The notes beneath the pieces were generated by a model that worked only from the letters and a program-made list of their open reading frames with translations, was not told the origin of the DNA and searched no databases. A DNA stretch of 47,462 bases from a virus, in the IMG/VR virus record IMGVR_UViG_3300032242_003199, positions 1 to 47,462 of that record; one strand, 5' to 3'. The position numbers were made by a program, and so were the translations under genes. Shown one piece after another: positions 30,801-47,462 of this stretch. Each line of letters opens with the position of its first letter. Position 1 is the first letter of the stretch.

Positions 30801-33800
30801 ACAAGCCATTGAAATACGAAACATTTTCACTGCGCTGATTGATGACATCTTTATCAACTTGGACAAAGTACAGACCAACAACATGTTCTTTGCACTGTTG
30901 AACTATATCTTGAGTGAACAGGTTTCGATTGACTGGGCTATCAAAACCAGCTTTATCAATGTGTTGCACAAGCTGAGAAAGCTGGGACAGTTCCCCAACT
31001 ACATACTTGACAACCAAACCTACTACGAAAATTACATCAACGAAGTCAAACCCTATCGCACACAGGTGCGTGAGTACACTTTGGACTATCAAGGCACAGA
31101 CATACTCAAAACAGGACTCAGCGACTTTGATTGGTTCTCAACCTATGATCCTGGACAGGGAATTTTCCTTTTCCTAGATCAAAACAATCCAATTGATATT
31201 CCCTACATCCAGGCTTCTGCTCGCAATGACTGGTTGATAAACTACACCTATCAACTGCAAAACATTGTGTTGACATCGCCTGGCTCTGGTTACACCCAAG
31301 CGCCAAGAGTGATTATTGCAGGTGGCGGCGGATCAGGTGCCACTGCATTTGCAGTGCTAGGAGTCAACGGAGTCGTTGGCGAAGTGGTACTATCTTCTCC
31401 AGGATCAGGCTACACCAGTACACCCACAGTGGAATTTGTTGGTGGTGGTGGCTCAGGTGCCACAGCAGCCATAGTGATATCAACTCCGCCTGGCTCACCA
31501 GTGACATCAACAACACTGAACAAGAAAGTGCGCAGTATCTACACAGCACTGAAATTTGACAGGATTGGCTACTACAGCACCATCAGATTCTGGAAACCAT
31601 ATGAGATCTATCACCCAGGTGATATTGTGGTCATTCCAAGTGTGAACCTGACCACGTTCTCCAACTACAACGAAAGAGCACTGCCACAGTACTCGTTTGC
31701 ATATCGCGTGATCAAAACACTGCTGGGACGCAACAACCTTGATCAGACCGTATTCAATGATCCCACCCTGGTAACACGCTTGACAGGATCAGACTTCAGC
31801 AATGCCAATGACAGGATCGCTGTGTACTTAGAACCTGGTAGCCCTGACATCGCACAGATTTTCAGCAGTGTCAACAGTGTACAGCAGACTCCTAGCCCTG
31901 TAAACGATCAAGTGATCAGTTTGGGCAAGCAGTGGAATCGTGTGCGCCATTCAGGTTATTATCCGATACAGCATGGTTATCAATATGCCGCAGTGGGCGA
32001 CAGTGCGCTGATTGGCCTCAGCCATGACGGATTGAACTGGGTCATACGCACTACCACAAACACTTCGGTCAACATCCGTGACGTGTTCTTCTACAACAAG
32101 TACACCTGGGTGGTTGTGGCCAATGGCGGCAACATCATGTACACTGATGATGGTCTTGCTTGGCAAGGTGAAATCATCAACCAATTCAATTACACACCTA
32201 CTCCGGCTCTGCCCAATGGTGCAACACTGAAAGACACAGCGCAGATCCTGGATATCACCACTGGTGTTTCAGTAGAGTCCACATACTCTGTTTACCTGGT
32301 AGTGGCCGGCAACAACGGTTTGATATTGGCCAATCCCAAGAACAACACTGCACTGACAACCAAATTTGATTTCTGGGCCAGCGTGGGCGTACAAGCACAA
32401 GCCAACCCAGGTTCATATCTGCACATGATCTCAGTTGATCGTGGTTACCTGACAGACATCGACGGATCCACTTACAATGTTACCATGCTGGCAAAATCAG
32501 GATACTTCTTGCAGAGCAGTGACGCAACACGCTATCGCAAGATGAAGCAGGGTTTTGTCATGACAGTTGGCGTCAATGGTGCCATATATGCTGCCACATA
32601 CAATGCCTTGGATGACATGATGAATGGTTATCTAAATGGCTACAGCTATGCAAACACTGGTAAATCTGGAAACCTTGGCTACCCATGGCAATCATTCTCC
32701 ACACCTGCGGCAGTGCAAGGTCTGGGTGATGGTTACAGTGGACAACAACTGACTGGACTGGCTGTGAGTGGACCAGACACCAATTGGGTGGTAGCAATAG
32801 GATCCGGCGGCACCCTGTTGTGGAACCAATTTAACATGCCGGTACTGGTACAGCCTGGTACGTCATCAATTGATGCAGGCACCATTGGTTACCAAGTGAT
32901 TGACCACGGATTTAACGCATTCAACAACTTTAGATCTTTTGATGACGACAACTTTGTTGCACCTTTGACCAAGGAAAAACTAGCCAGCTATGACTTCAAT
33001 GACATAACCTGGGACGGCGAAGTGTTCATTGTGGTTGGCAACAACAAATTGGCCATCTGGGGTTTCCCAGGACTCAAAACCACTGGCACAGGCGATCAAC
33101 AGAACTATGTTGAGATGTTTGATCAAAACCCAGTGACCAGCGTCAGCACCATACGTTCCACTGCCAGCTGGACAGGTGGTACCAACGTCACACAGGTCAT
33201 AGTAAACATTCCAATTGGTGATATCAACTATCTCAACATTGTGAATGGCATGTTGGTCACAGGCGTTGGTCTGCCACTGGGTGCATGGGTCAGCAGTTTT
33301 ACCAGCAACGCTTCTTACTTCTCTGCAAACGTCACATTTGATGCAGCCACAGTGCCTTCGCAGACATTCCAACCTGTGATATTCAAGTACGGATTCACAT
33401 CAAATATCGCAATTGGCACACCAGTGGTATTTGCCAGCAACCTTGATTTGACAGATCCTGCTTTGCAAGTGGTATCAATGACTACAACTGCCAATGCATA
33501 CATTGGTGACACCAGATTGTATTTTGGTGAGAACTACAATGAAATGGTACAAAGCAACTGGGTGTTTGTGCCCAACTCAAATCGTTTCAATCTTGACAGT
33601 GCAACAGGCATTGCCGCAGGATCGCGTGTGCGCTATGTTGGCAAGTTTGCGGCATTCCAATGGCAGTACGCGGCAGGACAAGAAGAAGACGTGAACTTGA
33701 ACATACGTTCAGTCAGTATCAACACCACCACAGTGGAAATTGACAAACCCTTGTTGCCACATGGTCAGATTGTTCCAATCATTGCAGCCAACAACATCAT

Positions 33801-34785
33801 CATTGCCAACGTCACAGTGCAGGGTGTGTATGCTGGCAACAGTGTGGTCACATTTGACGACAACACCGGTAACCTGTTGACCCTCACAGCCACCCAGACA
33901 CTGTATGCCAACACAACCACCTTGACCTTTGCCAACACGTTCAACCTGGCCGTGGGATATACCTTGCACTCAAATGCCTTGCTTGGCATACAAGGTGGCA
34001 GCAAGATCACCAATGTGTTCAACAGCCAGCTGGCAGGTGTGGTCAGTCGACTGGAGAAAGACATACCTCGCAACGTGCCTGGCACCAGCTATCCTGGCAC
34101 ACAAGTGATTGGTCAGGAATTCACTGACACCTTGTCTGACAGCCTGACTCTAGACAGCAACATCAGCAGTTACTACACTGACAGCTTGCTGGGAGTACGC
34201 CCAGAAGATATCGTGGTAGATGGCGGTAAGTTCATTGACACCTATGCCAGCCATGCACCTGAGGAACTGGTGCCTGCACAGATCATCGACAGCCTGCAGA
34301 TGAATGTTTTCACAGCCAATGTGGTAAACGGACAACCTGATTACGGCAATGTCATTGCCTACAAGATCCTGACAGACTACAAGTTGCCAAGCACTTACTA
34401 TCGTTTGACCAACGTGGGCACAACCAAACTGGCAGCCAATCTGGCATACGCAGACACCCAAGTGGTAGTGGTCAGCACTGATGGACTGTTGGATTCAGGT
34501 GCAGTATGGATCAACGCCGAGCGCATAGTGTATCGTGGCATTGACAGAACACATGGCCTGTTGCTGAACCTGCGCAGAGGCACCCTGCGCACCAGTGTTC
34601 CTGCCCTGCATGCCGTGGGTAGCTTGGTCACAGACGCAACTTCCGCACAGCGTATTGGTGATGACTTTGTCACGCCAATAACAGACAACACTGTGGTCAG
34701 TGGCAATGTCAACGTGACTGACTACACCACTTATCTAGCATCACTGAACAAGCCCATACCGCAAGGTAAGATTTGGTTGCAATAG
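15862..34785 (+). CDS. 7: Giant gp7-like baseplate wedge / peripheral structural protein
   Basis: 6307 aa in one uninterrupted frame; T4 gp7 has 1032 aa. The N-terminus (NLLPEIFRSEPNRKFLTATL, then LDSYIGRTEAP, FDFDKFVNFTQYLWLP) matches the gp7-like giants of marine T4-like phages. TYRFHINQPGHKFWIQ (about 188-205) is a cupredoxin-like strand pair. WYDSDMVPYGNNF (about 1830) and the HPWEMLGFSQMPDWWEYAYG region (about 2095-2115) are also family landmarks. GSGYT-type repeats fill about 735-1340, 3050-3620 and 5140-5210. FG-GAP-like blades span about 3700-4470. A WQPNTSYQLGTLIQYKNNYY segment (about 2599) resembles small carbohydrate-binding modules. Residues about 5370-5700 have BNR/Ycf48-like blades (SALIGLSHDGLNWV, NGGNIMYTDDGLAW). 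The end (WINAERIVYRGIDRTHGLLL, LRRGTLRT) is a known ending of such proteins. Likely a wedge-initiator core plus host-contact modules. Confidence 0.85.
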   Translation: MSIKSVNLLPEIFRSEPNRKFLTATLDQLISEDTNVRLDSYIGRTEAPTWKVGDTYVTEPTSDRQQYQLESSVIVDEGSGNVSFYSSYIDTLKQIEFYGGFTNDHSRLFSNRSYSFDGLFDFDKFVNFTQYLWLPNGPPVIPLSASKIVETLDYTVTRSTATNSYQFTEFANSRNPIVTLTKGTTYRFHINQPGHKFWIQTSPGVTGTDSIESEALKRTIFGLVNNGDETGVVTFHVPLSSAQNNVLNATQVDTVDFATTLSYNQIQSYLMHVLAAKGGIDGVTAGLNGKKLIFINDDDSNDKWTDPGNFDFTGFDSDAYEAGQAVAGADRYGVFQIRTVDVGGGRFVLKLQPVLRVNPGEKVYVTAGKTNANVQFVKNLSGKFVVAPPVTAPLDMLYYQDDTDPSFYGVIKLVDPGAETIDVVQDILGTNGYTSPNGVTLSNGMCVSFDQTATPARYAGNNYIVEGVGKGIKLLSTGDFTVPETYAQLSSLGTPDYVTINRASRDLNAWSRSNRWFHRQTVELAAKYLNQPELVNLTNITRGSRPIIEFDPDIYLFEYGRQSRAPVDIIDFEITDAFSEVEGKSSYVVRMPHGVTRPLTAGTRIIFANDTDPNVRDRIYSVDYITTDTQRVIHLVSNNTEILPVYEVDTVSITSNIAYNFVPTVTFSKPLPGIGAETAEGIVNLNTTGVANVGVVYGGVNYIANVYIDVTTANSVPFVPTVAYKPFKQIDHIRLDTKGSGYSASNPTVYISNPNAMYGNVQSAATTGSSTTFTLSVSSTAFASLVAGMQVVAGGVLGGTIVSSVDKSGGASATVVTVNAPLAVGNVIAKTNTVQNVSPGDIWNFASNATAGGYATVALSIKTSQLITVNDTSMVDTNMVVSGGSLPVSISQVVLNTQAGVPARIVTTVPHGLVAGTLVFIRSIIGTVELNFTQYYAAPVSNGGNPSVAIDLYADALLTVPLDLRAATAYVSGGTITANTVDYGLVKVTKVLSPTQFTVSSPVTLVQGTKLVFVGVTAKAFARAANGGLYVATVTDPGSGYTATNPPVVTIPSDGGTSANITAITNDNIINYITVKDPGSGYVIKSGININIISNVDLVTANVTSNGTNVLYFDNPQQLVPVQPGWRVYLISTVNGVDTYTDFAQVPFAESAYSGPHPTEFRFLMDYTRTRAKIGTVLSVDYAAGTITLVSGVYAKDSDGVTIDLPKGSRLHVSAQSRFFLLENYGSSGAFGNTTKTGFLTAKETILSTQLQLNTVMGVQPGMMLKDLSNTLPIGVVVTAVDAYVNLITLNNPVTLGVNTPVEFVSDALLTTTLLPTTLANVQVTNPGKGYTSAPVVTIQPAVQSDPILTTLDTSTDSRVLLNVGSTVNIVANAKVTSTYDSSGNGVTTGSSVPHVVGFASKQLTSTTSQPQVILDISQTQNFVDIFVTFTLAAEATATVRSLNVQADYVSAQPDIYQATDTVLVSVPTNPSGQMSNSAAISTFNQFYFDGSSWLPSQQKTNVNQEPLFDAFDENGYSAADGTVYAGTKFTGTKIFGYKVGTGATDSVLNFPLSYQNNFNSVGDIQFVNYFQNDTFKYQPLDSYAELSLSISKFVLKQYTGASAEPWIYRNVWTESAEKSKQYQQFNYVYNGLINQFEVDVVPAQSATVPYIKVYAGGNRLPESSVSIGNQTGRTVITVDPTMIEANQLIIVKIFSRTPSHLGFYNVPNNLDLNPLNNNFDTLTLGQLRQHLVIMADNHYGVVGSISGSSNIRDIYNKNWEGAILQHTSPAAMASLFLVDKTLNIIESVKFAQREYNKFKNRFLSQSTKIQVNVKDIPGAVDSILASLMVGKSSLSPWYDSDMVPYGNNFRKQTNIKILDTTQRIYLIPQTFDPTMLQRRAVLIYQRDHSIGLNCLLITGIDFTFNTATSTITLSDDLPLAYTQHLVVVDYSTTVENYIPETPTKLGLYPKFTPMMFRDDTYREPVMVIQGHDGSITPAFGDYRDQLLLELELRIYNNIKVNFDNTLLEIYDTLPGKYRETDYSHHEFSQLLTDSFLTWIGNNKQDYSTNRFFKGNDPFTWNYNGLQDLTGELLPGYWRAIYQYFYDTDRPNTHPWEMLGFSQMPDWWEYAYGPGPYTGGNTVLWGDLEAGRILQGPRAGIDKRFARPGLARIVPVDENGMLKPPISVMVAQFNSQNTSSGFQIGDQGPVETAWRRSSDFPYAIQLALILAKPAMYLGTLFDNSRYYYDTALKQIVFSGTRQRLIPSLLQVPDAGLSTNPMVLTAGYSNWIRDYLTQQGIDGSDKLRDHLAKLDVRLSYKVAGFTSQNQLEIVAQQSSPGGSGNNIVIPNENYIVYLNKSAPVDRLIYSAVAVEVTNTGWRIAGYDTQKPYFTIIPSQPSNNTISVTEAGRSVVLYKDARLDITVNVPYGTEFRTAQEMADFLYSYQRWLSYIGFDFTEYNNELNVVQDWVLSIREYLTWSAQNFQVGTLLILSPIGSKITARSPLGVVDEITGKFNSNRFLDQNFTLIRHGEYAVTREDGMFTATAVTGKMIALADLSLVQYEHVLIFNNITVFKDVIYKPEIGNRQYRLRLTGYKTGSWTGQLSAPGYIYNSSIVDEWQPNTSYQLGTLIQYKNNYYYALEAVPTSTEFNFIYWKIVDKAQIKTGLLPNLSNNANKFRYIYDIDKIGRDANFQHYSNGLIGFRERTFLSQLGIEVPAQVRFYQGYIKQKGTKNAITALTSGQFDNIVSDVTFYEEWALRLGEYGSTQSNQYLEVTLDEQKFTNDPGAFVLKELDVPDTQGVVNFNPRTIYRTSEPTYTANILLPRADYAPRIGDNITAGYPSLSDIDGTIYDIADYQKHYSMVASMGAGFKVWVAVDFNKSWNVYRATETDVLLNTVTRGTGTDLLFTFEKPHNAKAGNLIAIKSFSSGALDGFYLVKQVNDNLSLTVTGYRGTTTFSQIRTVSGTGIYFLMESVRYNTVSDIIGFTPPHGWRNQDRVWIDNDLGTNSWGVFQKTDGWNTTRILPLRQGEDRYKEGYGAEVKLSADNQIILTGTPGYTAGSLSGLKVINPGSGYVKPAVTISYPTGPQGIRADFNATLDNGTLITPTVVSAGSGYTIAPNITITDQYTINANADTINGYYIYITTAQAAHIYVGDSITANGIPTGWSVTNQPNTTFNYVQIGQGPLVTYSSGTATPIQIGSATWVVNATSVPDIAVGSGFAAFPYGRSTSLYYATGIVSNIYSSGSSSYITANIFAIQDNGSNVSSGNVYTSWTLQTTIAVKQGTPVTFSRGSSGVILAKLSPTEIDHIEVVQGGSGFIITPTLVIDGGGGSGATAQAYLTNGVITSVVITNPGSGYTDIPDVIVLSNNPSPVTLRVKLKPTSLGNLVIDQKGTGYREPTLTFTTNTNDFANSAVANISFYPNAGVSSVTMYSAGSGYGNSSIITMANSQTGSGFVGNVYLGVISARLVSAGTGYVKGNVVTVVGGTVRGATYMANIIVDTVIGFSGAISSYHILSAGQYIYTPTNTSAVSTVCYADVNHKTTPAVFDLSFGVSNVSVISPGSGYNTTFTTANIYYPGGSGATGTVSRTINGIATFASTSVVNLGQGYIDVPTVTVTDLLGSGSGAVVEAVISTGQVKTFLRPDKTNYDLVETQLINPFSSDAREFGFAVDVGTINIVVSAPGTYKNYGGVLVSQSLGSTYISSQMIYPVDLTYLSNVSPRFGHSVALSRDENWLYIGAPGINKVYCYGKQVETYARVTIVPEPINQQIAYGTNLLGLQSAKEITVIGSTGKIYEANFDYAVSSNGLISFADFARISGQKAIYVTRNRLQTTLVPTVIRNIIQRAYPLLSRPSSIDQLLVYGATGRVFVPNKEFTVVGTNIIFLDDGFLTEPSIVIQQRSVYYTLVDTITPPDKVNSGANFGYSVRTDKLGYRIVIGSPDYAGTSPDGTTWSNVNASLTSTVSNVIYFPTASINSSLVGTVIKGPTVQWYPKDMGVLVTSVGTQNINGVVYGAVYLDTNVTVTAGDTINFMPTVASSGRAYSYSRSYEVVNSVGISNTFNVGQLRSVVAVKLDDIELTNLTDFQVLNNSVQLATTPKNGAKIQIDTNYFNLIQAFPAESVVNNGSFGATVDISPDNTSVVVGSPGYRDINYYNGAVYRYVNKGLYYGTVTNEYDFLQTNVAVGSTIKVNDKTITFSKIIPGIFTNVTVAVSTLQTSYVSLTSNVGMAVGDIVTSNSVPASAGVQVLTLANLATSNGTTFANVIVSQPFTATAGETIVFERYGDNVTNIQKNFTAAGLIGVTTQLTSDGHITIGSTASTGINSINILPGVGTALAGIGLKVYQLTQTIKHPRYGVPERFGTKVALDDTGLTVAIASAGGNTLKKSTFDNKSGAINIGTLFDKDTTRFVDNLNSSGAVYIYDYLSPPGETLASPGKLLYNQVLQNSHVLTGDNFGASIDINAGWALVGADASSYYSQYSGMVHLFINPTSVKGWSRLRQRGDRVDIDYINQTFIYSKKKQTILQQLDYFDPAKGKILGLADQELDYKSSYDPAYYNKGTRATVTISETSAWGSIQEGQTWWDLSQVRYIDYEQGDINYRAVHWGDLFPDSMVTVAEWVGSNVLPSMYQETMMDGVAKYPDDSAYVEDNYYDKQSGLIKTKYYYWVVGKSSIDNTKTKRTNSVITLEKLIANPAQQGIPYAAALASNAFAVWNVRSFLQATDTVLRVDYSKVLTQILSHNEWKLIQQGNPESYVPGKVIDKLVDSLSGENSTGAVVPDLKLSSADAYGINNLPRQSMIVNPVNATKVFVAFVNNVLSTMLITGTRDFVNLNKAEPVPASGVGFYDVTVDTVDQLLYIPSPPVDYKVLVNADATYVGNPWTIYKYTEANGFQLTRIQSYNTKRWWNYVDYYVAGYTQYTNIDFVVSRYNEIETLSLTAGNTVKVLNNSQGQYVVYVYNANNTLTPVIVESGTIQLSSALYDATLSGVGFDNASFDQVGFSTTQAIEIRNIFTALIDDIFINLDKVQTNNMFFALLNYILSEQVSIDWAIKTSFINVLHKLRKLGQFPNYILDNQTYYENYINEVKPYRTQVREYTLDYQGTDILKTGLSDFDWFSTYDPGQGIFLFLDQNNPIDIPYIQASARNDWLINYTYQLQNIVLTSPGSGYTQAPRVIIAGGGGSGATAFAVLGVNGVVGEVVLSSPGSGYTSTPTVEFVGGGGSGATAAIVISTPPGSPVTSTTLNKKVRSIYTALKFDRIGYYSTIRFWKPYEIYHPGDIVVIPSVNLTTFSNYNERALPQYSFAYRVIKTLLGRNNLDQTVFNDPTLVTRLTGSDFSNANDRIAVYLEPGSPDIAQIFSSVNSVQQTPSPVNDQVISLGKQWNRVRHSGYYPIQHGYQYAAVGDSALIGLSHDGLNWVIRTTTNTSVNIRDVFFYNKYTWVVVANGGNIMYTDDGLAWQGEIINQFNYTPTPALPNGATLKDTAQILDITTGVSVESTYSVYLVVAGNNGLILANPKNNTALTTKFDFWASVGVQAQANPGSYLHMISVDRGYLTDIDGSTYNVTMLAKSGYFLQSSDATRYRKMKQGFVMTVGVNGAIYAATYNALDDMMNGYLNGYSYANTGKSGNLGYPWQSFSTPAAVQGLGDGYSGQQLTGLAVSGPDTNWVVAIGSGGTLLWNQFNMPVLVQPGTSSIDAGTIGYQVIDHGFNAFNNFRSFDDDNFVAPLTKEKLASYDFNDITWDGEVFIVVGNNKLAIWGFPGLKTTGTGDQQNYVEMFDQNPVTSVSTIRSTASWTGGTNVTQVIVNIPIGDINYLNIVNGMLVTGVGLPLGAWVSSFTSNASYFSANVTFDAATVPSQTFQPVIFKYGFTSNIAIGTPVVFASNLDLTDPALQVVSMTTTANAYIGDTRLYFGENYNEMVQSNWVFVPNSNRFNLDSATGIAAGSRVRYVGKFAAFQWQYAAGQEEDVNLNIRSVSINTTTVEIDKPLLPHGQIVPIIAANNIIIANVTVQGVYAGNSVVTFDDNTGNLLTLTATQTLYANTTTLTFANTFNLAVGYTLHSNALLGIQGGSKITNVFNSQLAGVVSRLEKDIPRNVPGTSYPGTQVIGQEFTDTLSDSLTLDSNISSYYTDSLLGVRPEDIVVDGGKFIDTYASHAPEELVPAQIIDSLQMNVFTANVVNGQPDYGNVIAYKILTDYKLPSTYYRLTNVGTTKLAANLAYADTQVVVVSTDGLLDSGAVWINAERIVYRGIDRTHGLLLNLRRGTLRTSVPALHAVGSLVTDATSAQRIGDDFVTPITDNTVVSGNVNVTDYTTYLASLNKPIPQGKIWLQ
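18055..19890 (+). repeat. GSGYT repeats, first cluster (within the gp7-like gene)
   Basis: Degenerate protein repeats of the form (D/N)-P-G-x-G-Y-(T/S)-x2-P-x-V-x-I begin near 18070, 18970, 19093 and 19840. They are diverged at DNA level. Each unit looks like a strand-turn-strand element, probably a surface module. Confidence 0.7.
25006..26720 (+). repeat. GSGYT repeats, main cluster (within the gp7-like gene)
   Basis: At least nine units occur near 25015, 25140, 25745, 25865, 25980, 26105, 26215, 26485 and 26620. Several carry a second half with GGGGSGATA before the next unit (for example GGSGFIITPTLVIDGGGGSG). This is the densest array in the window. Confidence 0.75.
26960..29262 (+). repeat. 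FG-GAP-like propeller blades (within the gp7-like gene)
   Basis: Five spaced copies share FG-x-S/T/K-V-x-(L/I/T)-x-n-(V/I)-x-(I/V)-(G/A)-(A/S)-(P/A)-G: FGHSVALSRDENWLYIGAPG, FGYSVRTDKLGYRIVIGSPD, FGATVDISPDNTSVVVGSPG, FGTKVALDDTGLTVAIASAG and FGASIDINAGWALVGADASS, most followed by a (G/S)-x-V-Y-x-Y strand. This is the pattern of integrin-type beta-propeller blades, here separated by large insertions. Fold inferred from motif spacing. Confidence 0.6.
31270..31490 (+). repeat. GSGYT repeat pair near the gp7-like C-terminus
   Basis: Two closely matching units, SPGSGYTQAPRVIIAGGGG and SPGSGYTSTPTVEFVGGGG, each followed by SGATA, sit about 40 codons apart. They are the most regular units in the gene. 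Confidence 0.75.
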
Positions 34786-38441: not shown

Positions 38442-38453
38442 GGATAAATATAT
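38442..38453 (+). promoter_or_regulatory. Putative late promoter before the second fibre gene
   Basis: GGATAAATATAT lies 22 bases before the ATG of fibre B and matches the box at 6071 over its first ten bases. It occupies most of the 37-base gap between the two fibre genes. It would give fibre B its own late transcript. Confidence 0.6.
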
Positions 38454-38472: not shown

Positions 38473-41025
38473 ATGGCGTATAACATAGTAAAATCAAACA
38501 ACACCCCATTGGTAACAATCAATGACGGTCAGACGAACAACACCGCCACAAGTATCACGCTTGTGGGCAAGAACTTTGCTGGTTACGGCACGTTCCTAAA
38601 CGAAAACTTCGTGCAGTTGTTGGAAAATTTCGCGGCAGCTACTACGCCAGCCAACCCAATGGTTGGTCAGCTTTGGTACCAAACTTCTACCAACTTGCTA
38701 CAGGTCTACAACGGCAACGTGTGGAAATCAATTTCGGGCGCACAGAGCCTGGCAGACGCACCCACTTACAAAGTGGCCGGCGACTTGTGGTTTGACTCTG
38801 TCAACCAACAGTTGAAAGTGTGGTCAGGTTCGGCCTGGATTGTTATTGGCCCGTCATTTACCAGCACAACTGGACAGTCCGGTGCTGTGGCTGACACCAT
38901 CATTGACTCCGCACAGTACAGCCACGTGGTGGTCAAGTTCTTTGTACAGAACCAATTGGTTGCTGTGCTCAACAAAGACGCCACATTCCAGCCAGCAACT
39001 ACCATTCCTGGCTTTCCATCCATCCAGCCTGGTTTCAACCTAGCACAAGGCACCAGTGTTCCGCTGGTGTTCTACAACACAGCCAACAATGCTTCTTATC
39101 TGGGATCTATTCCTGCCAGCCAGTACTTGACAGTGAACAACGCTGAACTTGGCGCACAGTTGAAGATCAAGTCCAATGACGGTGTGTTGCTCACAGACGG
39201 CACAGGCACACAGGACAACTTCCAGCTCAGCATCAACAACAACAACGTTCAGTTACAGAGCTTGATTCGCGGTTATGGTTTCATCATCAGCACACTGCCA
39301 GACAACGCAGGTGGTGCGCAACAAACAGTGCTCAAGGTCGACCAAACAACTGGTTTGATCACTGTGCTGAACGATCCAACTGATCCAGAAGGTGTTGCAA
39401 CCAAGAACTATGTGGACAACAGAGACAATGCCACTCGTAGCATGTTGCAGAGCAACGTGGCCAGTATCTATTCCAATATTTCACAGAACCTATTCAGCAA
39501 CCTGTTGGTCAGCACCACAGGTTACACCAGCACATACGGCAACGTTCGACAGCTACAGTCTGACCTAGGCTACAACACTTCAGTTGGCGGTGTGCTACAA
39601 TCAACACCTATTGCCAACTATCAAGCCATCATTGCTGGCGGTGGCACTTTTGCATCCAACATCACCAACTTGTGGAGCAACGTGGCCACATTCTATACCA
39701 ACACCCTGGGCGGCTTTGGCAAGACCGGCGCAGGTGGCGATGTCAACTCCAGCATCTATGCCAACGTGGTTTCCCTACAGGGTCGCACGTCAAACATGGA
39801 AAACAACAAGCTGGAGCGTTCAGGATCACTCAGCATCACTGGCACACTGGCTCCGGACACCGGCAGCAGGTATGGACTTGGTGCCACAGGCAAGACCTTT
39901 GCCAACATCTGGGTTGACACAGTTATCACTTCAGGCTCAATCTTGAACCTGCAGACCATCAACGGCACAGGCTCCACACGTGGCAAGTTTGATCCAATGC
40001 AACTGATCTGCAACCCACTGACGATCACAGGCAACATCATATTCAACGACAACGTGAACGGCAACCCAACTTCCAACGTGGCCTTGGGCATTGCAGGTCC
40101 TTTGCGTGTGTCAGGCACATTGAGCCACACAGTTGATATCGTTCCTGTGGCTAACGAAGTATCTAATCTAGGCAGCAGTGCCAGCTTGCGCTACAACAGC
40201 GTGTATGCCAAAACCATCAACTGCTCGGCATTGAACCTTAGTGGATCAACACAGTCCAGTTCTGCCGCTTCATTTGGTGCGTTGACAGTTACAGGTGATC
40301 TGACTCCAGGCACTGACCTAACCTACAACATTGGTACCAATACTCCTGCCAACCTGCGTTGGAAAACAGTGTTTGCCACGGCACTGACCAGTGACAACGG
40401 CGTGAGCATTGGATCAAATGGTATTCGTTTGAACACCAGTGCCGCACAAGACATCGGCGCAAGCGCCAATCCGTTTGCCACGATCTACGCGGGACAGTTC
40501 ACAGGCACCACATTCTACACCAGCACCAGCAAGCTGGGTGTACAAAGCGGAGCAAGTCCAAACCTAGCAGATGCTACCAACCCATTTGTCAACGGCTACA
40601 TCACTACCATGTACGGCACAGCCACAGCAGCCAAGTATTCGGACTTGGCAGAACGCTATCATGCTGATGCTGTGTATGCTCCTGGCACTGTGGTGCGCAT
40701 TGGTGGTGTGAACGAAGTCACACAAGAAAACGAAGCGGCCAGTGACAATGTGTTTGGTGTTGTTTCATCCGCACCAGCGCACCTCATGAATGAAGCCGCA
40801 GGCGACAACAGCACTCATCCACCTATTGCACTGAGCGGACGTGTTCCAGTACTGGTGATCGGCGCAGCCAAGAAAGGCGATAGACTGGTCAGTGCTGGCA
40901 ACGGCTATGCTCGTGTGGTCAACCTACACGAAGCCACAGCATCAAACGTTTTGGGTCGTGTGCTGGCAGATAAGTACACAGAAGAAGTGGCACTGGTTGA
41001 AGCAGTGGTCACCGCAAGGATCTAA
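38473..41025 (+). CDS. Tail fibre protein B with C-terminal self-processing-like domain (850 aa)
   Basis: 850 aa, exactly as long as fibre A. The first 120 residues are clearly paralogous (ITLVGKNFAGYGTFLNENFV, LLENFAAATTPANPMVGQLW). The middle has a KIKSNDGVLLTDGTGTQDNF strand region and GSRYGLGATGKTFANIWVDT units typical of fibre tips. The last 130 residues read KYSDLAERYHADAVYAPGTV, EVTQENEAASDNVFGVVSSA, PPIALSGRVPVLVIGAAKKG and YARVVNLHEATASN. This resembles the intramolecular chaperone / peptidase G2-like endings found on phage fibres, which trimerise the fibre and may cleave themselves off; I cannot confirm a catalytic site. A CGGAG ribosome binding site precedes the ATG. Confidence 0.8.
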   Translation: MAYNIVKSNNTPLVTINDGQTNNTATSITLVGKNFAGYGTFLNENFVQLLENFAAATTPANPMVGQLWYQTSTNLLQVYNGNVWKSISGAQSLADAPTYKVAGDLWFDSVNQQLKVWSGSAWIVIGPSFTSTTGQSGAVADTIIDSAQYSHVVVKFFVQNQLVAVLNKDATFQPATTIPGFPSIQPGFNLAQGTSVPLVFYNTANNASYLGSIPASQYLTVNNAELGAQLKIKSNDGVLLTDGTGTQDNFQLSINNNNVQLQSLIRGYGFIISTLPDNAGGAQQTVLKVDQTTGLITVLNDPTDPEGVATKNYVDNRDNATRSMLQSNVASIYSNISQNLFSNLLVSTTGYTSTYGNVRQLQSDLGYNTSVGGVLQSTPIANYQAIIAGGGTFASNITNLWSNVATFYTNTLGGFGKTGAGGDVNSSIYANVVSLQGRTSNMENNKLERSGSLSITGTLAPDTGSRYGLGATGKTFANIWVDTVITSGSILNLQTINGTGSTRGKFDPMQLICNPLTITGNIIFNDNVNGNPTSNVALGIAGPLRVSGTLSHTVDIVPVANEVSNLGSSASLRYNSVYAKTINCSALNLSGSTQSSSAASFGALTVTGDLTPGTDLTYNIGTNTPANLRWKTVFATALTSDNGVSIGSNGIRLNTSAAQDIGASANPFATIYAGQFTGTTFYTSTSKLGVQSGASPNLADATNPFVNGYITTMYGTATAAKYSDLAERYHADAVYAPGTVVRIGGVNEVTQENEAASDNVFGVVSSAPAHLMNEAAGDNSTHPPIALSGRVPVLVIGAAKKGDRLVSAGNGYARVVNLHEATASNVLGRVLADKYTEEVALVEAVVTARI

Positions 41026-41027
41026 AA

Positions 41028-42098
41028 ATGGCAAATTCTACTTATGCTTTTCAGAGCCCAATTGAAGCTCAACAGTACAACAACCTAGTGTGGGGTAGCG
41101 ATGCAGGTGGTGGCTTGGTCACAACCAGCAACAACCTCAACATGATTTGGGGCCCTGGGTATGGTGCCAAAGGTATCAACCAAGGCATGAGTTCGCTCAC
41201 TAATACCAACACAAATAATGCTGGTACTGGTCAAGTGACTGTGGGCCAAAACGTGATCAGCTACAACAACACCACAGGCAGTTTGAATCAAGTGGCTGCT
41301 GGCGGAGTGGTTACTTCGCAACAGTGGATTGGATTGATTTCCGCAGTCAACAGCCTCATGTCATACCAAGGCAAAGCTGCCTATAGTTTGAGCACATTTC
41401 CTGGCATACAACAGAAGATTTCTGCATACGAACAGATACAGACCTATCTAAACTCTGGTGCTTCGGGCATGGGCACAGGTGGCGCACCTGTGGCACAGTC
41501 CTTGAGTGGACAGACACAAGCAGTGACATGGACAGCACCAGCTGATCTTACCACACGCACTCTCACAGCAACCACATCATTGCAATGGCCCACAGGAGAT
41601 GACGCACGTTGGTTCTTCAACGCAGGCGGTTATATACAGATCAGCGTGGCTGGCAAAGGCTCAGTTGATGCTCGTTCAGCAGCCGTTGCCAATATGTTGA
41701 ACAATGTGGGATATACTGCAATTCGTGCCAATGATTCAGGTGGCACCATGTACACAGGCGGTACAGGTTACTGGAACACAGTCCTTGGCCAAGCGGCACA
41801 GGTCTATAACAAGAACACAGGACTGGGTGTGTACACTGGATCCTATGTGGCAGTGAGCCTGACGTTGGATTCAACTGGTTCGGCAGGAACTCGCAACGGT
41901 GCCAACGGCAATCGACTGAACATCACAGTGTATATTGAATCACACACAGCCAGTGCTTTTGCTGCCACAGATGCCATTTCAGCTGAGCTGGACATAACCT
42001 GGCAGGTGTTTGATCCCGCAGCCAGTGGTTCCTACACCAACGTAACCAAGACTTGGCAAAGCCCAACAGTCAACGCTGCCACCTACTCAACCACATAA
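41028..42098 (+). CDS. Virion structural / fibre-tip-like protein
   Basis: 356 aa, starting 2 bases after fibre B. The first half is Gln/Asn/Ser/Gly-rich with a short helix around QQWIGLISAVNSLMSYQGKA. The second half contains GDDARWFFNAGGYIQISVAG, then YTGGTGYWNTVLGQAAQVY and LDITWQVFD. I recall DARWFFNAGG-type sequences in structural proteins of several large phages, without an established function. Asn-rich NGANGNRLNITVYIESHTAS near the end suggests an exposed beta-sandwich. No enzyme motif, signal or membrane segment. The position after the fibre genes suggests a fibre accessory or head-decoration protein. Confidence 0.65.
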   Translation: MANSTYAFQSPIEAQQYNNLVWGSDAGGGLVTTSNNLNMIWGPGYGAKGINQGMSSLTNTNTNNAGTGQVTVGQNVISYNNTTGSLNQVAAGGVVTSQQWIGLISAVNSLMSYQGKAAYSLSTFPGIQQKISAYEQIQTYLNSGASGMGTGGAPVAQSLSGQTQAVTWTAPADLTTRTLTATTSLQWPTGDDARWFFNAGGYIQISVAGKGSVDARSAAVANMLNNVGYTAIRANDSGGTMYTGGTGYWNTVLGQAAQVYNKNTGLGVYTGSYVAVSLTLDSTGSAGTRNGANGNRLNITVYIESHTASAFAATDAISAELDITWQVFDPAASGSYTNVTKTWQSPTVNAATYSTT

Positions 42099-42134
42099 TA
42101 ATCTGGACCCTGCAGGTACAAAATAAGTACTTGC

Positions 42135-42446
42135 ATGAGTTTGCAATCTTTATCTGACCGTGTGCGTCAGGCCACCGATTATCAATGCAACAAAAAAATA
42201 TTGCGCGAGCAGATACAAGCGGATCTGCTGATTCCCCACGGTGATGGTCTTTTTGAAGTATCTGTTGAGCTGATTGCCTTTCTGGCCACATGGGACCAGG
42301 ACACAATCTATCTCGAAGACCACTACGGAAATCCTGTTGAATGCAATCGAGTGGCTCTGCTTGAATCTTGCAAACAACAATACCAACGGGTAATGAATAG
42401 GTGGCATGTTCAGCATGAGCAACTACGTCAAATCCGAAAAATCTAA
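42135..42446 (+). CDS. Small hypothetical protein opening the modification cassette
   Basis: 103 aa, function unknown. It begins MSLQSLSDRVRQATDYQCNK and contains ILREQIQADLLIPHGDGLFE, then ELIAFLATWDQDTIYLEDHY. The end is a basic helix (YQRVMNRWHVQHEQLRQIRK). Mostly helical, soluble, one Cys in each half. Proteins of this shape occur in other T4-like phages as conserved hypotheticals (recalled). Its last 41 bases overlap the next gene, implying coupled translation. The upstream ribosome binding site is weak. It begins the chain of small genes after the structural block, so it may belong functionally with them. Confidence 0.65.
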   Translation: MSLQSLSDRVRQATDYQCNKKILREQIQADLLIPHGDGLFEVSVELIAFLATWDQDTIYLEDHYGNPVECNRVALLESCKQQYQRVMNRWHVQHEQLRQIRKI

Positions 42447-43182
42447 GGGTGTGCTGGCCTTTGCCAACAACACTCCTACCACAGACTACGAAAGCATTGG
42501 CGCTCGTACGCTAGAGCTGGCCGGGCAAAGCCTAGGTCTTCCGACCAAACTCATAACTGGCCAACAGCAAGCAGACTGGCACAACATGCGCCGTGATGTG
42601 GACACCTTGCAACCAGTGGCCTGGAACAATCACAGTCGCTGGCAATGCTACGAACTCACGCCGTGGGATCAAACTTTGGTCATTGATATTGATCTGTTGG
42701 TCATGACTGATAGACTATTGAGACTTTTTGATCACCTACAGGACTATCAACTGTGCCATCACAACACCACCCTGTTCACGCAGGACGCAGTGAGCTTTGC
42801 TCCAGTCTGGGCCACAGTGTTTGCATTTGAGAAAACACCTGCAGCCAAGGACTTTTTTGAATTGGTAGGACGCATACAGCGAAACTGGAACTATTATCGC
42901 ATGTTATTTGGCATCGTGCAGATAGAATTCCGCAACGACTATGCATTTGCCATGGCAGAGATAATACTGGGCGGACACACACGCACCCAGCAATCTCGCA
43001 TGCCCTGGGGCATAACCACAGTTGATGCGCCAGTTGATAACATTGAGTGGGTCAACGACTGGCTGGTGGTTCGCACAGCAGACACAGCCAGAGTGCTGCC
43101 ACGCTGTGACCTGCATGTGATGAGCAAGGCATGGTTGCAAACACCTGCACTGGATGTGCTGATACAAGGAGTTCCGGTATGA
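42406..43182 (+). CDS. Glycosyltransferase-like protein A (GT-A-type acidic motif)
   Basis: 258 aa; the start at 42406 has an AGGTGG site, and ATG 42415 is an alternative. KGVLAFANNTPTTDYESIGA opens the fold. YELTPWDQTLVIDIDLLVMT carries a D-x-D (94-96) following a hydrophobic strand, as in GT-A nucleotide-sugar enzymes. WATVFAFEKTPAAKDFFELV and RNDYAFAMAEIILGG follow; an ND...FA.A pair is also common in such proteins. It is paralogous to the next gene: same order and spacing of (Y/F)-(E/D)-L-(T/S)-P, the acidic triplet and ND-x2-FA-x-A. Donor and acceptor are unknown. A glycosyltransferase-like fold is likely; activity is not shown. Overlaps the next gene by ATGA. Confidence 0.55.
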   Translation: MFSMSNYVKSEKSKGVLAFANNTPTTDYESIGARTLELAGQSLGLPTKLITGQQQADWHNMRRDVDTLQPVAWNNHSRWQCYELTPWDQTLVIDIDLLVMTDRLLRLFDHLQDYQLCHHNTTLFTQDAVSFAPVWATVFAFEKTPAAKDFFELVGRIQRNWNYYRMLFGIVQIEFRNDYAFAMAEIILGGHTRTQQSRMPWGITTVDAPVDNIEWVNDWLVVRTADTARVLPRCDLHVMSKAWLQTPALDVLIQGVPV

Positions 43183-43997
43183 GAGGTTTCCTTTGCCTGG
43201 CACAAAACAACAGCACCACTGACTATGTGCGCTTGGCCTACTTGCAACGCATGAGCTGCCGACTGGTCAGTGATCTGCCCTATACCTTGGTAACTGATGC
43301 AGCCAGTCATGCCAGCATGAGCAGTCACACACGAGACATGTTTGACAACATCATCGTGCTACAAGAGGACCATGCCCGGGATCAAGAGTGGAAACAGATG
43401 AACGACTGGCAGTTGTTTGATCTCAGTCCTTACAAACAGACCATAAAGATGGAAGCAGATCTCCTGCTCACACAGCCCATAGACCATTGGTGGCGTATGT
43501 TGGAAAAACGTGATGTGGTGATCAGCTCTGGATGCCGAGACTTTCGCGGTGATCCAGCTACCAACAGACTGTACAGGAAAACCTTTGATCTAAACTTGTT
43601 GCCTGACATATACACAGGACTCATGTACTGGCGTTTTAGCGAAACTGCTGGCGAGTTTTTCCAACTGTGCAGATCCGTTTATGCCAACTGGCATTTGATA
43701 AAACAACAACTGTCACAGTGTGACGACCCTGGCAGCAACGACATGGTGTTTGCAGTGGCCGCAATGATATTTGGCCAAGAGCAAGTGACCATACCCGGTG
43801 CTGACTTCTTTAACTTTGCACACATGAAACCAGCTATCAATGGCCTGTCCAGGCCCTGGCATAGAGAAATGAGCATTGAGTTGGATCCACCTCGCATGCG
43901 ACTGAATGGATTTGAACAATGGTATCCAGTACACTACTATGAAAAAGAATGGGCAACAGATGACATCATTGAACGATACCGAAGATCATTGGCCTGA
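43179..43997 (+). CDS. Glycosyltransferase-like protein B (paralogue of A)
   Basis: 272 aa from ATG 43179, coupled to the previous stop (ATGA). RGFLCLAQNNSTTDYVRLAY mirrors the start of protein A. LFDLSPYKQTIKMEADLLLT places E-A-D (92-94) where A has D-I-D, so the first metal-binding acid is Glu. DIYTGLMYWRFSETAGEFFQ and SNDMVFAVAAMIFGQ match the later segments of A, with closer resemblance to true glycosyltransferases in the substrate region. It probably arose by tandem duplication and divergence. The pair may act sequentially or as a heterodimer; this is inference. No membrane segment. Confidence 0.6.
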   Translation: MRGFLCLAQNNSTTDYVRLAYLQRMSCRLVSDLPYTLVTDAASHASMSSHTRDMFDNIIVLQEDHARDQEWKQMNDWQLFDLSPYKQTIKMEADLLLTQPIDHWWRMLEKRDVVISSGCRDFRGDPATNRLYRKTFDLNLLPDIYTGLMYWRFSETAGEFFQLCRSVYANWHLIKQQLSQCDDPGSNDMVFAVAAMIFGQEQVTIPGADFFNFAHMKPAINGLSRPWHREMSIELDPPRMRLNGFEQWYPVHYYEKEWATDDIIERYRRSLA

Positions 43998-44352
43998 ACT
44001 GGGCAAGGCCCTGGAATGGTTATGGCAACAGCAACAGCAGGCCGTGCCAGTGACCACTGAGTGGCGTGTGTACCATGTGGGCGGAGTTCCCACCGGGTGC
44101 TATGCAGGACCCAATTGGCCTGAAGGTGAATGGCTGGCCATACCAGAAAAACAAGCATTGGAATGCACTCCGGTCACACACAGGATCATTGACAATCGTC
44201 TGATCAATGTTGACAACCAGAGGCAAGGCATGTTACAATTAGTAGAATCGGAATCGGGTGAATATGTCACTACAGAATACATGAGCCTGATACTAGAACC
44301 CGGAGAGACATATGAGCGTACAAAAAACTATACTAGACATAGCGGACCTTGA
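43960..44352 (+). CDS. Small hypothetical protein in the modification cassette
   Basis: 130 aa if started at ATG 43960 (an in-frame ATG at 43939 is an alternative; neither has a strong ribosome binding site). It overlaps the end of protein B by 38 bases and the next gene by 41. The sequence begins MTSLNDTEDHWPELGKALEW, then a run of Gln residues, then WRVYHVGGVPTGCYAGPNWP and GEWLAIPEKQALECTPVTHR. The end is acidic, then YERTKNYTRHSGP. No family recognised. The heavy overlap on both sides argues it is translated together with the two flanking glycosyltransferase-like genes and may be a partner of one of them. Confidence 0.6.
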   Translation: MTSLNDTEDHWPELGKALEWLWQQQQQAVPVTTEWRVYHVGGVPTGCYAGPNWPEGEWLAIPEKQALECTPVTHRIIDNRLINVDNQRQGMLQLVESESGEYVTTEYMSLILEPGETYERTKNYTRHSGP

Positions 44353-45214
44353 TGTCATTTTCCTGTCATATGATGAGCCACGCAAAGATGAAAACTGGAT
44401 CAAGATCAAGAATATGGTACCGTGGGCAAGACGTGTGGACGGGATCAAAGGCTCAGACGCCGCACACAAGGTGGCCGGCGCACTCAGCACCACAGATCGT
44501 TTTATCTTGGTGGACGGAGACAATATACCCGATCCTGAATTTTTCAATCTACATCTTGTTATTGATGACAGCAATCGCGACTGCGTGTTTCGTTGGCGGG
44601 CTAGGAATAGTATCAACGGGCTTATGTATGGCAACGGAGGTATCTCGTCGTGGAGCAAGACATTTGTGGAAAACATGCGCACACATGAGGCAAGCGATGG
44701 AAGCCCGGACACAGCAGTAGAGTTTTGTTTTGATCCACGTTACTGGAGCATGCATGATTGTTACTCTACCACATATCCTGATGCAACACCTTTCCAGGCC
44801 TGGCGAGCTGGCTTTCGTGAAGGTGTCAAGATGTGTTTGGATCGTGGCGCACGGCCCAGTTTGACTGAGTTTTCCCAACGCATACATCAGCGAAACTATG
44901 ACAACCTGTGTGTATGGCACAGCGTGGGTGCAGATCATCCCCAGGGGTTCTGGGCCATATACGGTGCCAGGGTAGGCACTGCACTGACCATGCTGGACAA
45001 CTGGGACTACACTCAGGTACAGGATTTTGATCGCCTGGCTGCCAAGTGGGAAGAATACAAAGACCACGGTGCTGATCAATGCACCGCGGTCGGCAATAGA
45101 TTGCGCACACAATTGAAACTGGACATAGTGGACATGGATGCTGGAGAAAGCCGTTTCTTCAAACATCATTATCGTGCAAATTGGAAGAACTTGGGAATAA
45201 TGACACGTGAGTAA
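44312..45214 (+). CDS. Glycosyltransferase-like protein C
   Basis: 300 aa with a GGAGAG site before ATG 44312. It begins ILDIADLDVIFLSYDEPRKD, then VPWARRVDGIKGSDAAHKVA and TDRFILVDGDNIPDPEFFNL, where DGD (68-70) at the end of a strand is a typical metal/nucleotide-sugar site of GT-A proteins. VFRWRARNSINGLMYGNGGI follows. I recall this YDEP...VDGDN...NGL-YG-GG family as frequent in cyanophages and pelagiphages, usually annotated as glycosyltransferase or hypothetical. It is not closely related to proteins A and B. Overlaps the radical SAM gene by 8 bases. Substrate unknown. Confidence 0.65.
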   Translation: MSVQKTILDIADLDVIFLSYDEPRKDENWIKIKNMVPWARRVDGIKGSDAAHKVAGALSTTDRFILVDGDNIPDPEFFNLHLVIDDSNRDCVFRWRARNSINGLMYGNGGISSWSKTFVENMRTHEASDGSPDTAVEFCFDPRYWSMHDCYSTTYPDATPFQAWRAGFREGVKMCLDRGARPSLTEFSQRIHQRNYDNLCVWHSVGADHPQGFWAIYGARVGTALTMLDNWDYTQVQDFDRLAAKWEEYKDHGADQCTAVGNRLRTQLKLDIVDMDAGESRFFKHHYRANWKNLGIMTRE

Positions 45215-46580
45215 AAGCGACTTCATGACCGATGCTGAACACATGCGAGACCGATTGGGTCAATCCATGTGCTTGGCCAAATGGCAGCAGGTAAGCCTGC
45301 ACCTGACCACTGGCATGAACAACTCATGTTACCACCCGCCACTGCATCGCATACCTGTCGAGTCACTCAAGACCAATCCGGGTTCTTTGCACAATACTCC
45401 GCACAAGAAGCAACAGCGCAAGATCATGTTGCGCGGAGAAAAGCCCAGCGAGTGCGGCTACTGCTGGGCCGCTGAAGCCAACAACCAGCTGAGTGATCGC
45501 CATTATCGATCAGGCGAACCCTGGGCGGCTGAACACTTTGATACCATCATGTCCAGCACAGGAGACGAAGATGTGGTACCCAGTTACGTGGAAGTTAATT
45601 TTAACCATGCTTGCAATCTTAAATGTAGCTATTGCAGTCCACAATTCAGTTCAGCATGGTACAGTGAAGCCAAGATGTCAGGAGGTTATCCGACAAGCAC
45701 ACCTCACAATAGCCCTGAGTATTTTACTGGCCATCGCCAGCCTATACTGGCTAGAGAACACAATCCCTATGTTGAAGCATTTTGGGAATGGTGGCCTACC
45801 CTATATCCCCAACTGAAACATTTCCGCATGACCGGAGGAGAACCACTCATGGATCACAATACCTATCGTGTGTTTGACTATGTGGTAAACTTTCCCAAGC
45901 CAGACCTGCACCTTGCAGTCACGTCCAACTTCAGTGTTGAACCCAAGCTGTGGATCAAGTATCTGGACTATGTCAAACGACTGTGCAACACACAGATAGA
46001 ACATTTCATGCAGTACGTGAGCATTGACTCAGGCAATGCCAACCAAGCCGAGTACATCAGACATGGCCTGGACATGAGCCTGTTGCATGAGTACACCGAA
46101 CAGTATCTCACCGACGTGCCCAACAAGAACAGCCTTACATTTATCGTGACCATGAACAACCTCAGCCTCACAGGCACACTGCAACTGCTGGAATGGATCC
46201 TGGCACTGAGACAGAAACACAGCCATACCTATCAGCGTGTGTGGTTTGACACACCGCTGTTGCGCACACCAACCTGGCAGAGCATACAGATCCTGCCAGC
46301 GTCCTATCAGTATCTGCTGGAACGCATTGTTGGCTTCATGCGTGAAAATCGCATGCCTGACGACAGCTTTGTGGGATTCAAAGACTATGAGATACAGCGC
46401 ATGGAACGCAACTTGGCCTGGATGAAGGAACCACAAACACCTGCACGTCTGACCCAGGATCGTGCAGACTTCTATCGTTTCTTTGCCGAACATGATCGCC
46501 GACGTGACACTGACTTTTTAACAACATTTCCAGAGATGCACGAATTCTGGCAGGAGTGCAAATACCATGCCGAAGCTTAA
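45207..46580 (+). CDS. Radical SAM protein with N-terminal Cys/HPP module, copy 1
   Basis: 457 aa with GTG start at 45207, overlapping the previous gene by 8 bases. The radical SAM motif C-x3-C-x2-C is at Cys136, 140 and 143 (CNLKCSYC). RMTGGEPLMD (about 206-215) is the SAM-contacting GGEP motif. Before the barrel there is a conserved module: CLAKW, CYHPP (Cys41), NPGSLHNT, KPSECGYCW (Cys83, 86). This could hold another metal or bind substrate. No SPASM Cys set follows the barrel. The adjacent downstream gene is a paralogue with the same N-terminal module. Similar twitch-type radical SAM proteins occur in marine T4-like phages (recalled); none has a function I know of. Confidence 0.85.
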   Translation: MSKSDFMTDAEHMRDRLGQSMCLAKWQQVSLHLTTGMNNSCYHPPLHRIPVESLKTNPGSLHNTPHKKQQRKIMLRGEKPSECGYCWAAEANNQLSDRHYRSGEPWAAEHFDTIMSSTGDEDVVPSYVEVNFNHACNLKCSYCSPQFSSAWYSEAKMSGGYPTSTPHNSPEYFTGHRQPILAREHNPYVEAFWEWWPTLYPQLKHFRMTGGEPLMDHNTYRVFDYVVNFPKPDLHLAVTSNFSVEPKLWIKYLDYVKRLCNTQIEHFMQYVSIDSGNANQAEYIRHGLDMSLLHEYTEQYLTDVPNKNSLTFIVTMNNLSLTGTLQLLEWILALRQKHSHTYQRVWFDTPLLRTPTWQSIQILPASYQYLLERIVGFMRENRMPDDSFVGFKDYEIQRMERNLAWMKEPQTPARLTQDRADFYRFFAEHDRRRDTDFLTTFPEMHEFWQECKYHAEA

Positions 46581-47462
46581 CAACGAAACTGACCTGGCCT
46601 ACAAGCGTCGGGTGATAGATATCAAGAGCGCCAGCTTCTGTGGCGCCAAGTGGTACAATGCCACCATATGGCTGGGCTCTGGCCAAACCACCAGCTGCCA
46701 TCATCCGCCTGCGCATGCCATTGATCCAGACGACATCAAAATCAATCCGTCTGCACTGCACAACACACAGCGCAAGAAAGCTGACCGTGAGCAGATGCAA
46801 CGTGGCGAGCGGCCAGCTGGGTGTGACTACTGCTGGAAGATAGAAGACATGGGTCCTGAAGCAGTCAGCGACCGTGTGTACAAGACATCAATATATTCTG
46901 AGGAGGACTTAAATGTCGCATTTTCAAGACCAAGCTACACAGATTTCAACCTCCGCACACTGGAGATCTCGTTTGACAGAACTTGTCAGTTTGCTTGTAG
47001 TTACTGTAACCCTGCTTTTAGTACTACGTGGGCTAATGACATACGGCGCAACGGACCTTACACAGGATTGGTCACAGACGGTCGTGGTCATTTTACTCAT
47101 GCTCACGATCACAGTCAACTTTATAAATTCGGTGAAACTAATCCGTATGTGGAGGCTTTTTTCCGCTGGTGGGAAGCAGACCTACACAGCACCTTACACG
47201 AACTCCGTATCACCGGAGGAGAGCCACTCATGTCAGGCTACACCTGGCAGCTTATCGACTGGTTCAAACAAAACAGAGGCCGTAGCAAAACAAGGCTAGC
47301 CATCAACACCAATCTAGGCGACCAAGTGGATCTTGAACGCTTGCTTGATGCCACACAGGACATTGAGCTGGACATCTACACCAGCAACGAAAGCATGTCC
47401 ACACAGGCTGAATACATACGCGATGGCTTGGACTATCGGTCCTGGATGGAAAAGATGGTGCG
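46567..47462 (+). CDS. Radical SAM protein with N-terminal Cys/HPP module, copy 2 (cut by window end)
   Basis: An open frame of 298 complete codons from ATG 46567 that runs off the window. It overlaps copy 1 by 14 bases. It shares the N-terminal module (FCGAKW, CHHPP with Cys44, NPSALHNT, RPAGCDYCW with Cys86 and Cys89), the cluster motif CQFACSYC (Cys140, 144, 147), and ELRITGGEPLMSGYTW. Tandem duplication with considerable divergence is evident. Codons around the cluster motif (about 46985-47160) end in T more often than those of the neighbours. The C-terminal part is missing only because the window ends. Function as for copy 1: enzyme class clear, substrate unknown. Confidence 0.85.
   Translation, partial: MPKLNNETDLAYKRRVIDIKSASFCGAKWYNATIWLGSGQTTSCHHPPAHAIDPDDIKINPSALHNTQRKKADREQMQRGERPAGCDYCWKIEDMGPEAVSDRVYKTSIYSEEDLNVAFSRPSYTDFNLRTLEISFDRTCQFACSYCNPAFSTTWANDIRRNGPYTGLVTDGRGHFTHAHDHSQLYKFGETNPYVEAFFRWWEADLHSTLHELRITGGEPLMSGYTWQLIDWFKQNRGRSKTRLAINTNLGDQVDLERLLDATQDIELDIYTSNESMSTQAEYIRDGLDYRSWMEKMV

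Follow-up and report, generated by a model that had tools for sequence, protein, structure and literature searches.

A gene cassette behind the fibre genes

The stretch of DNA analysed here (the window) is a virus fragment of 47,462 bases, IMG/VR record IMGVR_UViG_3300032242_003199, whose last part is a cassette of glycosyltransferase-like (GT) and radical SAM (rSAM) genes. A larger conserved phage operon is represented in the window by its 5' half, and the cassette genes occur together far beyond chance. All seven open reading frames (ORFs) that had been listed in an earlier reading of the DNA letters (hereafter the sequence-only reading) were found on the + strand where that reading had placed them. 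The first encodes sm1, a small protein of 103 aa (42135..42446) with seven invariant positions in an alignment with 23 homologues. It is followed by GT-A, a glycosyltransferase-like protein of 258 aa, putatively of the GT8/glycogenin type (42406..43182); GT-B, also glycosyltransferase-like (43179..43997); sm2, by its alignment a fast-evolving small protein (43960..44352); and GT-C, a glycosyltransferase-like protein of 300 aa with a putative GT-A fold (44312..45214). The last two genes encode N-terminal-twitch radical SAM proteins, namely rSAM 1, of 457 aa (45207..46580), and rSAM 2 (46567..>47462), within which the window ends, leaving 298 aa up to the contig end. For GT-B and sm2, whose longest ORFs span 43131-43997 (288 aa) and 43906-44352 (148 aa), we used the starts conserved in homologues, 43179 (M17) and 43960 (M19). 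With these starts, the overlaps of 41, 4, 38, 41, 8 and 14 bases given by the sequence-only reading are exact.

That reading had also placed the cassette next to fibre genes, and it lies directly behind two of them. Immediately 5' is fib (41028..42098, +), a second fibre-like protein of 356 aa whose homologues occupy the same place; before it comes f38 (38473..41025, +), a fibre-like structural protein of 850 aa with matches to phrog_6427 and the tail-fibre phrog_19602. The gap between fib and sm1 contains a 25-nucleotide inverted repeat, TGCAGGTAC-AAAATAA-GTACTTGCA (42111..42135, +), which reaches as far as the opening nucleotide of the sm1 start codon. The window phage is T4-like with a contractile tail, encoding baseplate proteins, a late sigma factor and proteins of the SbcCD type, and its gp6-like baseplate protein is nearest to those of the jumbo phages Phosso, Atu_ph07, SCTP-2 and RaK2 (about 33-39% identity). 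Between the gp6-like gene and the fibres there is one ORF of 6307 aa (15862-34785, +).

Conservation of gene order

Searching the IMG/VR viral contigs with rSAM 1 gave 304 relatives, the best 80 of which (65-73% identity) were fetched; a search of viral contigs with GT-B gave at least 565, and the best 80 loci were examined. Across these 160 loci the order is f38, fib, sm1, GT-A, GT-B, sm2, GT-C, zero to six inserts, rSAM 1, further inserts, rSAM 2, C, D, further inserts, E and finally a 360-aa unknown protein. The 915 core genes of the rSAM 1 loci lie on a single strand throughout, with no violation of this order, and none was seen in the GT-B loci, 62 of which extend far enough to include rSAM 1 and without exception do so. 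Within the rSAM 1 set, the pairs f38/fib, sm1/GT-A, GT-B/sm2 and sm2/GT-C are never separated, f38 adjoining fib in 61 of 61 loci, and the cassette-internal junctions overlap in nearly all loci (median overlap 8-32 bases). Because the two locus sets have some contigs in common and were ranked best-first, we carried out a third test with an independent marker, the gp6 baseplate protein. GT-C was present in 16 of the 18 longer records picked in this way, and the other two also lacked N-terminal-twitch rSAMs.

The sequence-only reading had proposed looking for the same order in other phage contigs, where it recurs without violation, and inspecting the sequence past 47462, where relatives show at least four further conserved genes. 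It had also raised the prospect that the genes might occur independently of each other in most relatives. This is not so, although two genomes (G618 and G620) keep fib-sm1-GT-A-GT-B-sm2-GT-C with a different, short rSAM tail.

Over eight genomes, mean identity was 67-70% for GT-C, rSAM 1 and rSAM 2, compared with 58% for gp6 and 33-48% for fib, GT-A, GT-B and sm2 (fib 0.40, sm2 0.33). The constrained centre of the cassette is therefore formed by its best-conserved members, the final GT together with the leading rSAMs. A divergent form, together with phage fibre genes, was seen on contigs of up to 335 kb from GTDB metagenome-assembled genomes (L164-L169, L171); these contigs sit in bacterial and archaeal bins and are probably mis-binned phage genomes.

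The inserts include a further rSAM (c18), a GDP-mannose-dehydratase-type epimerase (c21) and GDSL-like proteins (c11). Two other insert families, c12 and c13, are related to each other (hhalign E 4e-24) and share a TEK...P motif reminiscent of glycosyltransferases. One more radical SAM gene of the window (1378-2310, -), which has no N-terminal twitch, is W_rSAM_matur/phrog_21308-like and adjoins a PDDEXK/RusA-like gene; its relatives occur as cassette inserts (c22) in some loci.

In genome G612 (L375-L376), whose gp6 is 63% identical to that of the window, the same slot after f38 is taken by another cluster, with about ten rSAM-motif proteins that are not of the N-terminal-twitch kind. Their neighbours, as named by eye, are UDP-sugar-dehydrogenase-, DegT-, PIG-L-, APS-kinase-, sulfotransferase- and desaturase-like, and an epimerase was recognized by a hidden Markov model match. 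The slot behind f38 thus looks like a site for exchangeable sugar-tailoring gene sets.

Enzymes and small proteins of the cassette

The curated cut-off of the NCBIfam model NF033640 (N_Twi_rSAM), 170 bits, is passed by rSAM 1 (305.8 bits), by rSAM 2 (199.3 bits) and by the next three rSAMs in the related locus L004. To our knowledge, this is a sequence class to which no reaction has been assigned. The CX3CX2C motif is kept in all members of the five rSAM subfamilies (80/80, 67/67, 58/58, 64/64 and 58/58, rSAM 1 and rSAM 2 being the first two), and each subfamily has four or more invariant cysteines in its N-terminal part. NF033640 matches number 7-16 apiece in fourteen phage records of 150-357 kb. 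With a fixed order in 160 loci and every rSAM site intact, the dedicated modification pathway envisaged by the sequence-only reading gains in substance.

GT-A and GT-B are homologous (hhalign probability 99.6, E 3.5e-24). A Pfam scan gave no match for either protein; the GT-B profile matched glycogenin-1 with E 2.5e-3, and GT-A gave a weak glycogenin match (E 0.6). Both carry a DxD-type metal motif that is invariant among 23 sequences each, D94/D96 in GT-A and, as an ExD variant, E108/D110 in GT-B. In GT-C a D68-G-D70-N motif is invariant. The AlphaFold model of this protein (pLDDT, the predicted local distance difference test, 85.8) retrieved GTs and sugar nucleotidyltransferases as top Foldseek matches, with probabilities up to 1.0, a best E of 1.3e-3 and template modelling (TM) scores below 0.4; weak GT2 Pfam matches were obtained for 10 of 23 homologues. 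These GT-A-fold signals support the GT-like label of the sequence-only reading, and the proteins do not look like the non-enzymatic structures that it had considered.

In the 360-aa protein encoded after the last rSAM (L004 14433-15512), H133, E137, H169, E170 and E172 are invariant and may form a metal site. Its model (pLDDT 83) had no fold match in the PDB, and in a viral structure library it matched only proteins of uncultured phages and one Atu_ph07 protein. A PDB profile search with sm1, rSAM 1 and the insert families c12 and c13 returned nothing usable. The idea that sm2 might be akin to a small protein beside a Rhodobacter GT-C relative was rejected, as there was no similarity.

Promoters and terminators

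The motif ATAAATA, which forms the core of T4 late promoters, lies 5' of the homologous fibre gene f38 in 56 of 63 loci. In the window it occurs at 6073 and at 38444..38450 (+), the latter site being upstream of f38 and outside the cassette. Upstream of sm1, the sigma70-type promoter score had a median of 12.3 in the first locus set, against 7.0 for shuffled sequences, and of 11.1 in the second, against 7.8 with dinucleotide-preserving shuffles; the other cassette genes scored near background. The promoter matrix is an approximate, generic one, and its scores were used solely in comparison with those of shuffled sequences and of other genes. Many of the sm1 promoters read TTGACA-N17-TATAAT or TTGACA-N17-TATACT. 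A terminator-like hairpin was found in the fib-sm1 gap in 43 of 65 cases (3 of 65 after shuffling), and at some loci (L058, L064, L068 and L074) the promoter is embedded in it; G612 (L376) likewise has TTGACA-N18-TACAAT within a hairpin at the corresponding junction. Several other loci have a -10 box that stops 6 nucleotides 5' of the start codon, so that a leaderless message is possible.

In view of these promoter and terminator counts, we rejected the notion of the cassette as the end of the late fibre operon, for most relatives only and not for the window. Because most relatives have a sigma70-type promoter of their own, as opposed to the T4-type late promoter at the fibre gene, the sequences suggest early expression of the cassette in the group of relatives rather than for the window copy. 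This promoter, often with a terminator before the cassette, weakens the virion or fibre programme to which the sequence-only reading had linked these genes.

Relatives in cells

NF033640 is rare in cells, with matches in 3 of 398, 1 of 78 and 2 of 199 genomes, phage contigs in bins included. One bacterial locus (L193) comprises RmlD, an ABC-2 permease, an ABC/Wzt/radical SAM fusion, three further rSAMs, TylF, another methyltransferase and WbsX. The fusion, of 854 aa (L193 8579-11143, -), joins an ABC ATPase, Wzt_C, SPASM and radical SAM domains, and thereby hints at an rSAM that takes a direct part in O-antigen export. No second fusion of this kind was found in the taxonomic order of the L193 genome, and the papers examined on Xanthomonas wzt and radical SAM do not make the connection. 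In another bacterial locus (L213), two rSAMs accompany Wzm/Wzt-like genes, three GTs and a hexapeptide acyltransferase.

Actinomycete relatives of GT-C adjoin GT4 and GT2 genes. A further relative, from a replicon of Rhodobacter sp. CZR27 (L201 14004-14930; 37.5% identity over 94%), lies inside a type VI secretion cluster. Among 398 Pseudomonadota genomes, GT-C was found only in one with phage-like contigs.

Comparison with known systems

Phage GTs that alter the host O-antigen are known from the gtr-type serotype-conversion modules, small sets of GT, flippase and acetylase genes. The present cassette differs in being dominated by rSAM enzymes and in having no detectable flippase: a Pfam scan of the seven window proteins gave no match to the gtr-type flippase (GtrA) or to the bactoprenol glucosyltransferase (GtrB). 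The Wzm/Wzt ABC-exporter clusters for O-antigen or polysaccharide (L193, L213) resemble it in that related N-terminal-SPASM/twitch rSAMs stand beside GTs; they are bacterial, however, and include exporter and nucleotide-sugar synthesis genes, whereas the phage cassette is without an exporter. Large Vibrio phages (the KVP40 group, K566/K567) have distant rSAM relatives (about 21-24% identity) but no match to the cassette GTs or sm1. In one of them, K566 (L183), a small cluster of such relatives has a PagP-like gene for lipid A acylation in its vicinity.

Among the known systems, pelagimyophages offer the closest precedent with their host recognition cluster (HRC), which contains GT8 genes and optional rSAM cassettes and for which O-chain modification has been proposed; it is large, hypervariable and non-syntenic, in genomes of 132-164 kb (Zaragoza-Solas et al. 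2020, PMC7029224). In both cases GT and rSAM genes occur at the tail-fibre region of T4-like phages. Unlike the HRC, the cassette has an ordered core, without violations in 160 loci, in which only the inserts vary; it comprises five or more orthologous rSAM subfamilies and occurs in phage records of up to 357 kb.

The carriers are large uncultured water-borne phages. In tblastn searches of 50,697 deposited phage records, rSAM 1, GT-A, GT-B, GT-C, fib, the 360-aa protein and sm1 gave no match. The sequence-only reading knew of no named system with this composition and we found none either, the gene order not being described in the literature searched, outside of which lie most subscription journals and bioRxiv.

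Proposed function and alternatives

The explanation we favour, while giving it about equal chances of being right and wrong, is that of an early glycan-tailoring operon, which would probably remodel the host surface polysaccharide. Three cytosolic GTs, two of them related and GT8/glycogenin-like and one GT2-like, would add sugars to an acceptor, and five conserved plus a variable number of N-terminal-twitch [4Fe-4S] rSAMs would tailor these sugars by radical chemistry, candidate reactions being oxidation, epimerization, deoxygenation and C-C or C-S bond formation. In most relatives, a promoter of the host type, set apart from the late fibre operon, would allow the enzymes to act early on the infected cell. 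An altered surface polysaccharide might then block competing phages, or keep the progeny off debris.

We consider it quite probable that the cassette enzymes work on a glycan, given the GT assignments, the bacterial Wzm/Wzt contexts, the epimerase among the inserts, the GT neighbours in actinomycetes and the sugar-type genes of G612. As to the host surface being the target, we regard the chances as roughly balanced. Several observations speak against our explanation. The GT matches are weak in both sequence and TM-score. The glycan context rests on two bacterial loci, L193 and L213, and the rSAMs of the latter score under the NF033640 cut-off; other cellular matches have no obvious glycan neighbours (L212, L214) or lie near an ERF gene (L194). 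Among the genes of the window we saw neither a flippase nor a polymerase nor a lipid-linked initiating transferase. The fib-sm1 gap of the window contains only the inverted repeat, without a sigma70 consensus; its nearest relatives, L004, L005 and L085, likewise lack this consensus, and the strength of the sigma70-type promoters is an assumption. Finally, GT-C, rSAM 1 and rSAM 2 are better conserved than gp6, which would not be expected of enzymes that follow variable glycans of the host.

This last point, together with the unchanging place of the cassette just after two fibre genes, makes glycosylation of the virion the main rival: the cytosolic GTs and rSAMs would decorate the neighbouring fibre or some other virion protein. 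Conservation above that of gp6 would fit a phage-encoded acceptor: enzymes adapted to particular hosts might vary, and the best-conserved ones here do not. Such a role would agree with the lack of an exporter or flippase in the cassette. The best hint in its favour is the GT-C relative of Rhodobacter, located as it is in the cluster for a phage-tail-like machine, the type VI secretion system. We nevertheless consider virion glycosylation unlikely, because most relatives show a sigma70-type promoter and a terminator rather than a late promoter, because the fibre proteins that might be decorated are poorly conserved (mean identity of fib 0.40), and because the bacterial relatives of the rSAMs accompany polysaccharide exporters.

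Known hypermodification of phage DNA employs both GTs and rSAM enzymes, and early-type promoters and highly conserved enzymes would also suit a pathway that builds a complex modified base, in DNA (or RNA), against restriction. Such a role seems improbable to us, as the bacterial relatives are found in polysaccharide rather than DNA-modification clusters, and Pfam and NCBIfam scans of the genes at 42135-47462 revealed no base-modification family. The peptide or cofactor product also suggested by the sequence-only reading, that is, rSAM maturation of a glycosylated ribosomal peptide (e.g., sm1 or sm2) or synthesis of a redox cofactor, could appeal to the habit of SPASM/twitch rSAMs of acting on peptides, to the two small proteins within the cassette and to the glycopeptide S-glycosyltransferase SunS among the Foldseek matches of GT-C, but is very improbable, given that SunS is just one of many GT2 matches, that the sm1 and sm2 alignments show no conserved leader plus short core pattern, that the Pfam scan found no RRE/PqqD-like recognition domain or peptide transporter, and that the genomic context of the relatives points instead to surface polysaccharide.

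Implications

Phages usually encode only a few radical SAM enzymes, which are costly and sensitive to oxygen. The presence of 7-16 per phage, five of them in a fixed operon across hundreds of environmental contigs, points to an unfamiliar sugar chemistry on which these phages depend. It is conceivable, if somewhat doubtful, that we are dealing with a new class of viral pathway, in which five to sixteen paralogous rSAMs, acting as a relay, and phage GTs would tailor a glycan on the infected cell or on the virion by radical chemistry. Phages would then themselves synthesize a novel type of sugar modification, the replaceable rSAM tail serving as a 'serotype' switch. Under our favoured explanation of an early glycan-tailoring operon, the cassette suggests a candidate function, surface polysaccharide tailoring, for the N-terminal-twitch rSAM family, and it offers a concrete set of enzymes for assay. 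The separate promoter, in turn, makes the alteration of the host surface by large phages a testable question.

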